64,000 nt of DNA from Muribaculaceae bacterium (GTDB taxonomy: Bacteria; Bacteroidota; Bacteroidia; Bacteroidales; Muribaculaceae): NCBI GenBank assembly GCA_017391675.1, contig JAFOXR010000044.1, positions 1 through 64,000 on the forward strand. The letters run 5' to 3'. The position numbers were made by a program, and so were the translations under genes. Shown here piece after piece: positions 27,887 to 31,426 of this stretch; position 1 is the stretch's first letter, and each line of letters opens with the position of its first letter. The notes below the pieces were generated by a model. It made no database searches, had not been told where the DNA came from, and saw nothing but the letters and a program-made list of their open reading frames with translations.

Positions 27887-27913
27887 AAAGAGCTCTTGAG
27901 AGCTCTTTTTTTT
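27887..27913 (+). terminator. Terminator of the LysM-PorT-like operon
   Basis: A 9-bp perfect stem (27887-27895 with 27900-27908) with a TTGA loop is followed by eight T. It isolates the next transcription unit from read-through. Confidence 0.9.
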
Positions 27914-27942
27914 GCTCATTAAATTTAAAAATGTTATTTTTG
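27912..27942 (+). promoter_or_regulatory. Promoter of the structured RNA / surface-protein leader
   Basis: TTG at 27912-27914 and TATTTTTG at 27935-27942 are 20 bases apart, a good match to the Bacteroidetes consensus. Transcription should begin near 27949. No equally good promoter is visible between 28206 and the protein start at 28268. Confidence 0.7.
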
Positions 27943-27948
27943 CAGTAA

Positions 27949-28206
27949 ACATTGGTAGACAAAGAGTTGTCGCCAAGGAGGACATATTTTTTAGAAAGCG
28001 TTTTTATGCTTTATCCTTGTTTAGAAATTCGCCAAAATTATAATTCTGAAGGATAATGCAGTCACAAGACGCTCATGTTTGTTGTATATCCACTCCCAAC
28101 GACGAGGAGATATTCGATAAGGCGTGGGATTGGGCTGTTTATTTCAGAATTGGGCGTTTGGCGATGCCTCTAAACAAATAAACATGAACAATGTCCTGCG
28201 CTTTCT
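27949..28206 (+). ncRNA. Highly structured RNA: long leader or independent noncoding RNA
   Basis: Downstream of a good promoter, the sequence contains nested perfect complementary segments: 27993-28000 with 28199-28206 (8 bp), 28017-28025 with 28169-28177 (9 bp), 28029-28036 with 28157-28164 (8 bp) and 28042-28050 with 28143-28151 (9 bp). Inside them are 28058-28063 with 28133-28138 (6 bp with G-T pairs) and a small hairpin 28093-28096 with 28106-28109. A 5-bp hairpin at 27958-27971 starts the element, and 27979-27985 can also pair with 28191-28197, crossing the outer stem. The result is a long rod with internal loops, architecturally like 6S RNA or a large riboswitch, but I recognise no family. 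No T-run follows, so it may be the 5' leader of the downstream surface-protein gene. Confidence 0.6.
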
Positions 28207-28267
28207 GCATTTTAATAGCATAATTGCCAAATTCGGGGACACAAGCGGCACTTACTTTTATAAAAAC

Positions 28268-31200
28268 ATGAAGAAAAAATTATTAAAGTCCCTGTTGCTG
28301 GTAACAGCAATGCTATTGGGACTAAGTGTAAACGCTCAACAAATACGAGCAAAATGGACAGAACCTGCCGATGCTGAAACAGGATTATGTTCAATTAAAA
28401 CTGCTACCGGGTTTGGAGAAAAATTATTTGGAGTTAATTGTGATGCGGGTACTGTAGAAGAATGGGAAGATGGAAAGTTAATAGCTAGTTATGATGTAAA
28501 TGGATTTTGTTATGCTAATCATATAGGTGAAAGTGTAAGAATACAAATTACTGAAAATATTTCAACATCGGAATTTTTTCCATATAAATTATTTAATGCT
28601 ATTATGATTGATGATGCTGGTAATATATTGGTAAATGTAGCACTTGATGATAATAATAAAATTTCTTGTCAGAATTGGGTGTTATTACCTGCTTCTAATC
28701 GAAATGCAATGCAATATCTACATATAGGAGAATTCCCATCAGCAGATATAGTTCAAGGTAGAGTTGATGTTCCATCTCGAATTATTGGTGATATCTCTGA
28801 TGGAGCATTTATGTATATACCTGTAGCTGGTTCTACTATATTACAGGTTATGTACATCGGTCTTGACGATAATGGTAAGATTTTTTACGACAATGAATGG
28901 TCTTGGCATCTAATGTCTGAATCTACATTTGACTCTTCTACCAATGTTGCTACTTTCCAAACTGTAGATGACATTCTTAATGCTCAAGAAGATAGTCATG
29001 TTGCAGCTAAGACATACATTCGTTGTAGCGGACAAGACTCTCCTTTCACTTGGAACACAGGAACTATACAATTTGAAATGAATACGGCTCTTAATGCTGG
29101 TGCTAATACTCCAGGTATGGATGTTTTTAAGATAGGTGAAGTAGAATATATGGTTCTACCTGTTAAGAGTGCAACTACCGGTTCTCGTGGCTCTTCAGTT
29201 GCTGTTTACAACCTAGCTGATGGAACTGAAGTTGCTTATTGGGACGCAGAAACTAAAACCGATTATTATGTTGGTTCTGTGCAAGCCCAAGTGTGTGCAA
29301 ATGGTAAATCTGCAAACATTTATGTAGCTGGTCAAAAAGATTGCTTCGGGATATTATCTTTTTGCCCATATGATTATATTTCATCAATTAAGTTTGAATC
29401 TTCAGAGCTCACTTTGGAAAAATATCAAACAACAGTGTTAACACCAATAGTAGTAAAAAATGATGAAAGTTTTACATCTGAATATATTTGGTCTTCAAGT
29501 AACTCATCTATAGCAACTGTTGATAATAATGGAAAAATTAGAGGAATATCAGCTGGCATTGCAACAATTACTGTGGGGATTAAAGACTCTGATGTTACCG
29601 CTACATGTAATGTAACGGTAACAAACTCTGAATATGCAACAGAAAATCTATTATATAAAATTATATCATCTGTTGAACCATATACAGTAGGAGTCATCTC
29701 AGGAAACTATACTGGAGAAGTTGTAATACCAAAAGAAGTAGAGATCGACGGAATAACTTATATTGTAACATCAATTGAAGATTATGCATTTAGTAATAGC
29801 CAAATTACTTCAGTTTTTATACCTAATTCAGTTAAAAGTATTGGTGAACGCGCCTTTTATGGATGTTATTTTTTGACTTCAGTATCACTTCCCAATTCTA
29901 TTACTAATATAAGTAATTCCACTTTTGCGTATTGTGACCGATTGTCTGAAATAGAAATACCTAATTCAGTTAAAAGTATTGGTGAATATGCCTTTGACGG
30001 ATGTTCGCGTTTAGCAAGCATCTCAATACCAGAAGGAGTTACAAAAATTGAAAATTATACATTTTTGGATTGCAGTGGTTTAAAAACTATAACATTACCA
30101 AGCACTATAACTAGTATTGGAAATAGTGCATTTGCTATGGGGGCAAGTTGGGAAACCACTGACGAAGGTGGTATGCAATTAATATATTATAAAAGGTCTA
30201 TTAAGTGCGATGCTGTTATTCCTCCTACATTAGGAAATTCTTTGTTTGATTACAACATCATAACTATGGAAGTTCCGTTTGCATCAATGATGGCATATAA
30301 AGAAGATGAAAGTTGGGCAAAATATGATATTACATATTTATCTAAAGAAGTCGAGGGACAAAATTTTGTGCCTACAAGTGATACAGAGATTGAGCTATCT
30401 AGCAAAAATAATGTAGAAGATGGCTATAATGGTGATGTAGTAATACCAGGAGAAGTGACCATAGAGGATCAAACATATACGGTTTCTTCTATAGGAGAGT
30501 CTGCATTTGCCGAATGCACTGAAATGACTAGCGTATCTGTTCCTGCAAGCATCACAACTATAGCAAGTACGGCATTCAATGGTTGTACAGGTCTTGAACT
30601 TCTTGATATGTCGGAAAGCACAGCTTTAACATCAATCAGCAGTAATACATTCAGCACATGTACTGCACTTGAAACAGTAAACTTTCCAACTTCTCTTGAA
30701 TCAATAGGTGCTAGTGCATTTGCTAATTGTGCGAACTTGTTAAACATGAGTTTACCTTGTACAACACCTCCGGCACTCGACAATGAAAATAATCCGTTTG
30801 AAGGCGTTGATGCTACGGCATGCATCATCTCTATTCCAACAGAAAGTGTAAGTGCATATACACAGTCTGATTTATGGAGTAAGTTTGTTGCCCCTTCAGC
30901 AAAGAGCGATATTCAAATTTCAGTAGTTAACAACGAATCTGAAAACGAAAACAATTGCACAATAAGATTCAAAAAATTCATTGAAAACACTATTGAACCT
31001 GCTGAATTGATGTCTAATAACATTAAGGCTACATTAGCTGAAGAAGAGGTTGTTTCAGAAGAAACACCAGATGCTGTGACAGCAAGCGGACAAAGTCTAT
31101 TTGTCGCAAATGGTGATGCTGTTACTTTCTACATTATCCCCGATGAAGCAACAGAAATAGATAAGGTAATATACAATGAAACTGATGTTACACAACAAGT

Positions 31201-31426
31201 AGTAGAAAATACATTTACAACACCCGAAGTTAATTCAAAATCATCATTGCAGGTTATCTTAAAGAATGGAACTCCAACCAGCGTTGAAGATTCTTTCATG
31301 GAAGATGTTGATGTTATTGAAACAGCTCGCTATGATATTAGCGGACGATTGATTTCGGCACCGATTAAGGGTATAAACTTTGTGAAGATGAGTGACGGTA
31401 CAGTTAAAAAAGAAGTAGTGAAGTAA
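28268..31426 (+). CDS. Secreted leucine-rich-repeat (BspA-like) surface protein
   Basis: A 1,052-residue protein starting at ATG 28268, where a clear signal peptide begins (MKKKLLKSLLLVTAMLLGLS, cleavage near NAQ). An earlier in-frame TTG is rejected. Domains by eye: an N-terminal beta-rich region to about residue 365 (possibly propeller-like, DUF4623-type), a bacterial Ig-like (Big_2) domain at about 370-455 (TVDNNGKIRGISAGIATITV), and BspA-type LRR_5 repeats of 23 residues in two blocks at about 480-640 and 720-870 (SIGEYAFDGC, IPNSVKSIGE). The end has VEDSFMEDVDVIETARYDI and ISGRLI...GINFVKMSDGTVKK, a type IX-secretion-like C-terminal segment. Such proteins bind host or microbial surfaces in relatives; the target here is unknown. 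It is monocistronic. Confidence 0.85.
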   Translation: MKKKLLKSLLLVTAMLLGLSVNAQQIRAKWTEPADAETGLCSIKTATGFGEKLFGVNCDAGTVEEWEDGKLIASYDVNGFCYANHIGESVRIQITENISTSEFFPYKLFNAIMIDDAGNILVNVALDDNNKISCQNWVLLPASNRNAMQYLHIGEFPSADIVQGRVDVPSRIIGDISDGAFMYIPVAGSTILQVMYIGLDDNGKIFYDNEWSWHLMSESTFDSSTNVATFQTVDDILNAQEDSHVAAKTYIRCSGQDSPFTWNTGTIQFEMNTALNAGANTPGMDVFKIGEVEYMVLPVKSATTGSRGSSVAVYNLADGTEVAYWDAETKTDYYVGSVQAQVCANGKSANIYVAGQKDCFGILSFCPYDYISSIKFESSELTLEKYQTTVLTPIVVKNDESFTSEYIWSSSNSSIATVDNNGKIRGISAGIATITVGIKDSDVTATCNVTVTNSEYATENLLYKIISSVEPYTVGVISGNYTGEVVIPKEVEIDGITYIVTSIEDYAFSNSQITSVFIPNSVKSIGERAFYGCYFLTSVSLPNSITNISNSTFAYCDRLSEIEIPNSVKSIGEYAFDGCSRLASISIPEGVTKIENYTFLDCSGLKTITLPSTITSIGNSAFAMGASWETTDEGGMQLIYYKRSIKCDAVIPPTLGNSLFDYNIITMEVPFASMMAYKEDESWAKYDITYLSKEVEGQNFVPTSDTEIELSSKNNVEDGYNGDVVIPGEVTIEDQTYTVSSIGESAFAECTEMTSVSVPASITTIASTAFNGCTGLELLDMSESTALTSISSNTFSTCTALETVNFPTSLESIGASAFANCANLLNMSLPCTTPPALDNENNPFEGVDATACIISIPTESVSAYTQSDLWSKFVAPSAKSDIQISVVNNESENENNCTIRFKKFIENTIEPAELMSNNIKATLAEEEVVSEETPDAVTASGQSLFVANGDAVTFYIIPDEATEIDKVIYNETDVTQQVVENTFTTPEVNSKSSLQVILKNGTPTSVEDSFMEDVDVIETARYDISGRLISAPIKGINFVKMSDGTVKKEVVK
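29819..29848 (+). repeat. 30-bp direct repeat, copy 1, in the LRR region
   Basis: Identical to 29957-29986. Both encode the start of an LRR_5 unit (IPNSVKSIGE). The copies are exactly 138 bases (46 codons, two repeat units) apart, so unequal exchange would keep the frame. Confidence 0.85.
29957..29986 (+). repeat. 30-bp direct repeat, copy 2, in the LRR region
   Basis: Second perfect copy of the 30-base segment at 29819-29848. Identity at the DNA level, against the divergence of other repeat units, points to recent duplication or gene conversion. Confidence 0.85.

Follow-up and report, generated by a model that had tools for sequence, protein, structure and literature searches.

In the window, by which we mean the whole 64,000-nt stretch of Muribaculaceae DNA analysed, about 315 nt of leader separate a Bacteroidota promoter from the start codon of a BspA-like gene, and the question is what this leader carries. 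The first-pass annotation had proposed a large nested-stem RNA under selection for its structure, either a regulatory leader or a stand-alone transcript. All four helices that it listed were found and are perfect: 9 bp at 28017-28025/28169-28177, 8 bp at 28029-28036/28157-28164, 9 bp at 28042-28050/28143-28151, and an outer 8 bp at 27993-28000/28199-28206. The 319-nt segment folds at -93.4 kcal/mol; 100 dinucleotide-shuffled versions averaged -70.2 ± 5.3 and not one folded as well (z -4.4). Its reverse strand gives a weaker fold (z -2.2). The terminator and promoter said to precede it are both present (Table 1); the terminator, strong and bidirectional (27887-27908, AAAGAGCTCTTGAGAGCTCTTT plus a T run), separates the leader promoter from the preceding gene and so isolates the leader as its own transcription unit. 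A protein-coding remnant was ruled out, as indels in the element core are not multiples of three, and a long GTG-start reading frame at 28124 is a mere upstream extension in the frame of the gene starting at 28268. We regard it as near certain that the window holds a member of a structured RNA class, with its core at 27993-28206.

Large, highly structured bacterial RNA classes are, to our knowledge, rare, and most of the widespread ones are regarded as already catalogued; the class described here is 160-230 nt in size, has at least two pseudoknots and a kiss, occurs in a phylum dominant in animal guts, and matches no Rfam family. At the gathering scores of Rfam 15 the sole match in the window was a tRNA elsewhere, the segment gave no credible match at E-values up to 10, and relatives at 50 further loci (18, 20 and 12) gave none at the element, in agreement with the earlier impression that no known family could be recognised. 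We found no description of the class in the main texts of the literature on Bacteroidota structured RNAs, and our claim of novelty is limited to Rfam 15 and these main texts. Fragments might figure among the 3161 candidate RNAs from human microbiomes that are listed in the supplements of PMC8040213, and a similar lead for earlier notice is given by the 64 structured 5′ leaders of F. psychrophilum in PMC9723704, some of them conserved and without Rfam matches. Within that scope the class is apparently new to the catalogues; in gut Bacteroidota it stands at the head of messages for numerous surface and accessory genes.

By nucleotide search, another copy was identified on the window's contig (G000:C40:75265-75582, 76% identical), and relatives gave matches in 19 of 54 genera. 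A pattern built on the best-conserved part matched at least 120 stretches of named GTDB genomes; the matches listed include Muribaculaceae, Prevotella, Cryptobacteroides and others, among them the named isolates Duncaniella muris, Heminiphilus faecis and Xylanibacter rodentium. Profile searching confirmed 150 loci. Covariance model R1, used to reach distant members, matched 132 of 393 Bacteroidales genomes (83 of 207 genera) and, in a phylum-wide draw, 24 of 396 genomes, other classes included, with the distant matches retaining a matched kiss; the 372 phylum genomes without a match served as negative control for this model, whose E-values are rough owing to a short calibration. Carrier genomes hold between 1 and 39 copies, the window's own having five, two others 14 and one 39. 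That last genome (G385, L228-L247) is only 2.6 Mb, and many of its 39 RNA-model matches precede paralogues of one exported family (MKKLIKCAG...GNNIRVDGKTRVV...) for which the one member scanned (L228) had no Pfam match; its true copy number may be higher still because several contigs end at copies. Elsewhere, two tandem copies lie on the same strand about 175 nt apart (L217:1501-1694 and 1870-2058), and a Bacteroidales-type copy sits on a 980-kb contig of a record titled Lachnoclostridium sp. (L038), which is probably mislabelled or chimeric.

Such copy numbers, together with contigs that end in copies, a partly palindromic sequence and some weak matches on both strands, would also suit a mobile or repeated DNA element of the MITE or REP-like kind whose inverted repeats only resemble RNA structure. 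We consider this extremely improbable: copies in one genome differ as much as those from different genera do (76% and 77%), the element keeps a strict orientation to the gene that follows, compensatory changes include full loop swaps, and conservation spans promoter to start codon between unrelated flanks. An unsystematic look saw no near-identical copies with target-site duplications, the window genome's own two best copies being 76% identical. An origin as a phage or plasmid element was also rejected, with no match in 50,697 phage and 72,556 plasmid records and a single IMG/VR contig; this 7.3-kb contig (L151), the only one in the viral collection with the element, carries it before an HTH-type gene and may be a prophage or host fragment.

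Homologue covariation is decisive for the structure. In a ranking of column pairs by APC-corrected G-test over 136 related elements, with no structure assumed, the top seven pairs all fall within P1 (28017-28025/28169-28177), followed by P3 (28042-28050/28143-28151), a central helix, the hairpin pair 28155/28166 and further crossing helices. Counting over an alignment of 55 sequences (A2), the assembled structure has 84.6% paired cells and 384 double-changed cells; shuffles reach 76.2% and 149, and slid controls no more than 50% and 155. Because shuffles ignore relatedness, we also compared the RNA duplex energy of each sequence's own strands with that of strands exchanged between sequences, in a close and a distant set. 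The resulting z values (close, distant) were -25 and -32 for P1, -23 and -29 for P3, -9.1 and -10.4 for PK, -8 and -17 for the kiss, -3.7 and -12.7 for P4, and -5.2 and -10.3 for T. Sequence comparison thus argues overwhelmingly for a selected RNA structure, as the first-pass annotation had supposed.

The shape of that structure differs from the rod with bubbles originally drawn. The middle helix, 28029-28036/28157-28164, is a kiss between two hairpin loops, and further helices cross it, so that the fold shown by comparative analysis is a junction with kissing loops and pseudoknots. H5 and HP are local hairpins whose loops pair, which gives a junction closed by P1 with H5, P3 and HP as its arms and the loops of H5 and HP kissing across P3; PK (28008-28016/28051-28059) and T (28137-28142/28178-28183) link P1 and P3 by their outer ends. 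Among close relatives the kiss is a nearly invariant UCGCCAA/UUGGCGA. Distant members change both loops jointly, to CUGGUA/UACCAG (L221), CCUCGAAA/UUUCGAGG (L198) or UCAGCAAAA/UUUUGCUGA (L256), and in L259 the pair is even flipped (GUUUGGCG/CGCCAAAC). A Watson-Crick loop match of at least 6 occurs in 88% of the 49 members without CGCCA versus 17% (maximum 29%) after swapping, and more than 30 distinct loop pairs were found, almost all of them matched. The pair also varies from copy to copy inside single genomes, both in G114 (L261-L268) and in G388 (L254-L260), as if selected against pairing between leaders, or else drifting freely as matched pairs. Many members are short (156-175 nt), with a plain hairpin, GCUCACG...CGUGGGC, standing in for the central domain; the window element is the long form, with a central extension of P6 and P7. 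An outer pairing GGACAU/AUGUCC (27979-/28191-) favoured by the energy model was dropped, as homologues do not keep it. By inspection, the stem of the last hairpin, F, is kept in homologues as GCC/GGC, CACCUU/AAGGUG or GUCUC/GAGAC.

Table 1. Features of the leader and the gene that follows it, in window positions. Paired z values are for own versus swapped strands in the close and distant sets.
Feature	Position	Strand	Basis
Bacteroidota-type promoter, TTTG 27911-27914 and TATTTTTG 27935-27942	27911-27942	+	Sequence; transcription start expected at ~27948-27952
5′ hairpin right after the expected transcription start	27952-27976	+	Fold; sequence variable, hairpin kept; mean shuffle z -2.7 in 45 homologues, 89% below -1
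Strand a, 5′ side of P0, partner 28199-28206	27993-28000	+	Compensatory changes at 5/8 pairs; own-versus-swapped z -9.4
PK 5′ strand GCUUUAUCC, partner 28051-28059	28008-28016	+	Covariation ranking, 55-sequence counts, own versus swapped
P1 5′ strand, partner 28169-28177, closes junction	28017-28025	+	Top seven covarying pairs; z -25, -32
Hairpin H5 (AAUU-CGCCAA-AAUU), loop kisses 28157-28164	28026-28039	+	Stem z -3.7; loop pairing kept, >30 variants
P3 5′ strand, partner 28143-28151	28042-28050	+	Compensatory changes at 8/9 pairs; z -23, -29
PK 3′ strand	28051-28059	+	Covariation, own versus swapped
P4 5′ strand, partner 28133-28136	28060-28063	+	91.5% paired; z -3.7, -12.7
Strand b and 5′ side of P6a (CUCAUG and UUUGUUG), partner 28115-28128	28072-28084	+	Predicted fold; b-c z -3.9, -7.8
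Variable central extension: P6c 28086-28090/28109-28113, P7 28091-28097 with 28126-28132	28086-28113	+	87-93% paired; P7 z -9.4 in long form; missing from ~160-nt members
Strand c GCGUGGGA, shared: pairs with b, P7 or d (28194-28201)	28122-28129	+	c-d 97% paired; z -6.9, -6.3
Helix T 5′ strand (GUUUAU), partner 28178-28183	28137-28142	+	z -5.2, -10.3
P3 3′ strand	28143-28151	+	Covariation, own versus swapped
Hairpin HP (GGCG...UGCC), kissing loop 28157-28164 UUUGGCGA	28153-28168	+	99.5% paired; C-G to U-A at 28155/28166; loop covariation
P1 3′ strand 28169-28177 and T 3′ strand 28178-28183	28169-28183	+	Covariation, own versus swapped
Helix E 5′ strand (UGUCC), partner ~28237-28241, overlaps strand d	28192-28196	+	z -9.9, -9.7; 0/5000 permutations
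Strand d (UCCUGCGC and UUUCU), pairs with c (terminator-like) or a (P0)	28194-28206	+	Pairing counts, own versus swapped
U-rich tract right behind GC stem	28202-28216	+	T 55-85% at first 10 positions after CGC in 55 homologues, then 20-40%
3′ hairpin F (UGCC 28225-28228/GGCA 28247-28250), just 5′ of gene	28225-28250	+	Loop GGGGACA, partner of 28192-28196
Controlled gene, exported BspA-like leucine-rich-repeat protein	28268-31426	+	Start ATG 28268; signal peptide MKKKLLKSLLLVTAMLLGLSVNA; LRR_5 E 4e-60, Big_2 6e-10

Of the two roles originally considered, the leader stood and the independent RNA did not. The next gene runs in the same direction as the element in 135 of 143 cases, usually at a distance of some 50 nt, which identifies a cis leader and not a 6S-like or other small RNA; for the upstream gene the split was 73 versus 56. 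Of 141 distinct homologues, 119 have TAnnTTTG upstream, the distance from core to ATG clusters at 50-60 nt with very distant members included, and across 20 copies of one genome conservation begins at the promoter and fades inside the gene, the flanks being unrelated. A cis placement is near certain. Its own promoter, a terminator-like 3′ end and very strong structure are what a stand-alone RNA, 6S-like or trans-acting and found before genes by chance, would be expected to have, yet that explanation is largely refuted and now very unlikely, given the orientation and near-constant distance of the next gene, the many different copies per genome, the lack of any 6S match, and conserved helix E, which extends beyond the supposed 3′ end. 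The suggestion that the RNA might stop near 28206 fails on this same helix, which joins 28192-28196 to ~28237-28241, past the U tract and in the loop of the last hairpin before the gene. The Rfam, homologue and covariation checks proposed at the outset all favoured a structured leader.

The genes that follow are diverse. A heuristic found a signal-peptide-like or lipoprotein start in 121 of 181 downstream proteins, and Pfam/NCBIfam assignments for 150 of them comprised LRR_5/BspA (20), PEGA (4), BACON (3) and HTH_3 (3), with GYF, TerB and LytTR also present; since nothing else was common, a simple regulon theme was dropped, and the families point to no particular ligand. A small HTH protein, mostly of 70-110 aa (M[IL]HIGK-IK...WFA-QLNC-R-NVYDIF...IDTELL-RIS), is encoded by the first gene behind about 16 of the 181 copies (L014, L027, L031, L035, L041, L055, L075, L099, L123, L134, L147, others, and L174 and L175 on contigs C49 and C10 of the window's own genome) and may belong to the same regulatory circuit as the RNA. 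At L174 and L175 the ATG of this gene comes directly after the core. Copies from other classes of the phylum (L221, L226, L227) precede a small unnamed protein family of about 70-95 aa, ...FxLxLKNGxIVxFxPxDxxxFxxWLxxxxVxxI..., two members of which (L221, L226) had no Pfam match. The RNA class marks a ready-made set of co-regulated genes that includes BspA-like surface proteins, lipoproteins, small HTH regulators and many unknown proteins.

How such a leader might act is suggested by its alternative helices. Strand c has three possible partners, b (28072-28077), P7 (28091-28097) and d (28194-28201), and strand d has two, c or a (27993-28000); because strands are shared, b-c excludes c-d and c-d excludes a-d, and all three are conserved. 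Helix c-d is 97% paired over 55 sequences with a mean energy of -15.9 kcal/mol, b-c, a-d and c-d were matched by none of the 2000 permutations in either set, and in the divergent L200 both b-c and c-d are re-matched perfectly (GAUCAUGCA/UGCGUGGUC and GCGUGGUCUA/UAGACCACGC). The c-d helix is rich in GC and has about 10 U behind it, and three exclusive helices on one conserved strand, one of this form, suggest a riboswitch-like conditional terminator. We therefore lean towards a cis-acting leader in which a sensor core would govern a conditional intrinsic terminator: a conserved, covarying structure lies in the 5′ UTR of a message, and the mutually exclusive helices form a putative expression platform.

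We infer a switch between two states. With the core acting as sensor, the compact state (P0, PK, P1, kiss, P3, P4 and b-c) would let RNA polymerase read on, after which helix E would take the left part of d and prevent terminator formation. The alternative state would have c and d paired (in the window, GCGUGGGA/UCCUGCGC) in a helix that encloses T and HP, and with the U tract behind it c-d would form an intrinsic terminator about 50 nt 5′ of the start codon. As the downstream genes share an export or accessory character and no common pathway, the signal would be expected to be global, such as a second messenger, an ion or the state of envelope or growth, and not a pathway metabolite. In a nested energy model of the window element, which leaves pseudoknots uncounted, the free fold has -88.0, P0 plus P1 -86.5 and the c-d rod -75.5 kcal/mol, so that the rod, 12.5 kcal/mol less stable than the compact fold, is an alternative and not the ground state; termination would thus need co-transcriptional kinetics, or c-d may form only transiently. 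P0 confounds the U tract, as its 3′ strand needs U too, the apical region of the rod (about 64 nt) is unusual for an intrinsic terminator, and a simple terminator scan confined to loops of 3-8 did not report it. The lack of a single downstream theme, unlike most metabolite riboswitches, also argues against a riboswitch-like reading.

The most serious rival is control of translation or message stability in place of termination, with helix E and hairpin F by the start codon, as a 3′ pseudoknot, and the 5′ hairpin gating ribosome access or RNase attack, and the core as sensor or protein-binding site. E and F are indeed conserved just 5′ of the start codon, a hairpin follows the transcription start, and Bacteroides 5′ UTRs are normally short, with a median of 32 nt (PMC7366714). 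In the two own-genome copies in which the core abuts the start codon (L174, L175), translational control is at least as plausible as termination. For the class as a whole we consider it rather unlikely, since E, F and the 5′ hairpin leave unexplained why c is complementary to both d and b and why a U tract follows d. A self-cleaving ribozyme or RNA-processing site in the leader would fit the compact, multiply pseudoknotted fold with its conserved unpaired stretches, yet no known ribozyme family matches and two exclusive pairing modes suggest switching, which makes this, too, very improbable.

We tentatively offer a wider possibility: across Bacteroidota, one unrecognised sensor class might control exported and accessory proteins as a broad, lineage-specific regulon, reading one global signal with its kissing-loop junction while the loop pair is re-invented in each copy, differing within one genome, so that dozens of leaders could fold independently. 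If true, gut Bacteroidota would possess a major, so far overlooked layer of RNA-based regulation.

Several known RNAs invite comparison. The first-pass annotation had been reminded of 6S RNA or a large riboswitch, and only the second likeness, a riboswitch-like structure in a 5′ UTR, held up. The comparison with 6S (RF00013, RF01685) points to a long paired rod and a size of about 190 nt, but the element is multicopy, lies in 5′ UTRs and has a junction with kissing loops. RF00013 matched neither the window nor its genome, although it did match control genomes, and RF01685 (6S-Flavo) matched neither the genome nor the element, a model that matched no control genome either; a stand-alone 6S gene of one or few copies was rejected given the 5′ UTR position (135/143) and up to 39 copies. 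Bacteroidales-1 RNA (RF01693) is likewise from Bacteroidales, about 180 nt long and of unknown function, and was rejected when the genome's only match proved to be at another locus (G000:C61:5920-6103, 110 bits). EAR and put processive antitermination RNAs are structured leaders that alter RNA polymerase behaviour; the present leader, also structured, has no EAR (RF01735) match, precedes single short transcription units, and has its own terminator-like stem. With c-di-GMP (GEMM) riboswitches, as here, a single RNA class occurs several times in a genome, ahead of varied surface and accessory genes; our class is unrelated to them in sequence and fold and has no Rfam match. In the purine riboswitch aptamer, too, P1 closes a junction in which a loop-loop kiss locks two hairpin arms together; in the leader class, however, a large stem, P3, lies between the two arms, the junction is crossed by PK and T, and the core spans 160-230 nt, again with no Rfam match. 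From transcription-terminating riboswitches the class differs in having no known ligand, heterogeneous targets and no Rfam riboswitch match, while sharing with them a 5′ leader position and a compact, pseudoknotted core followed by exclusive helices, one of which is a GC stem with a U tract near the gene.
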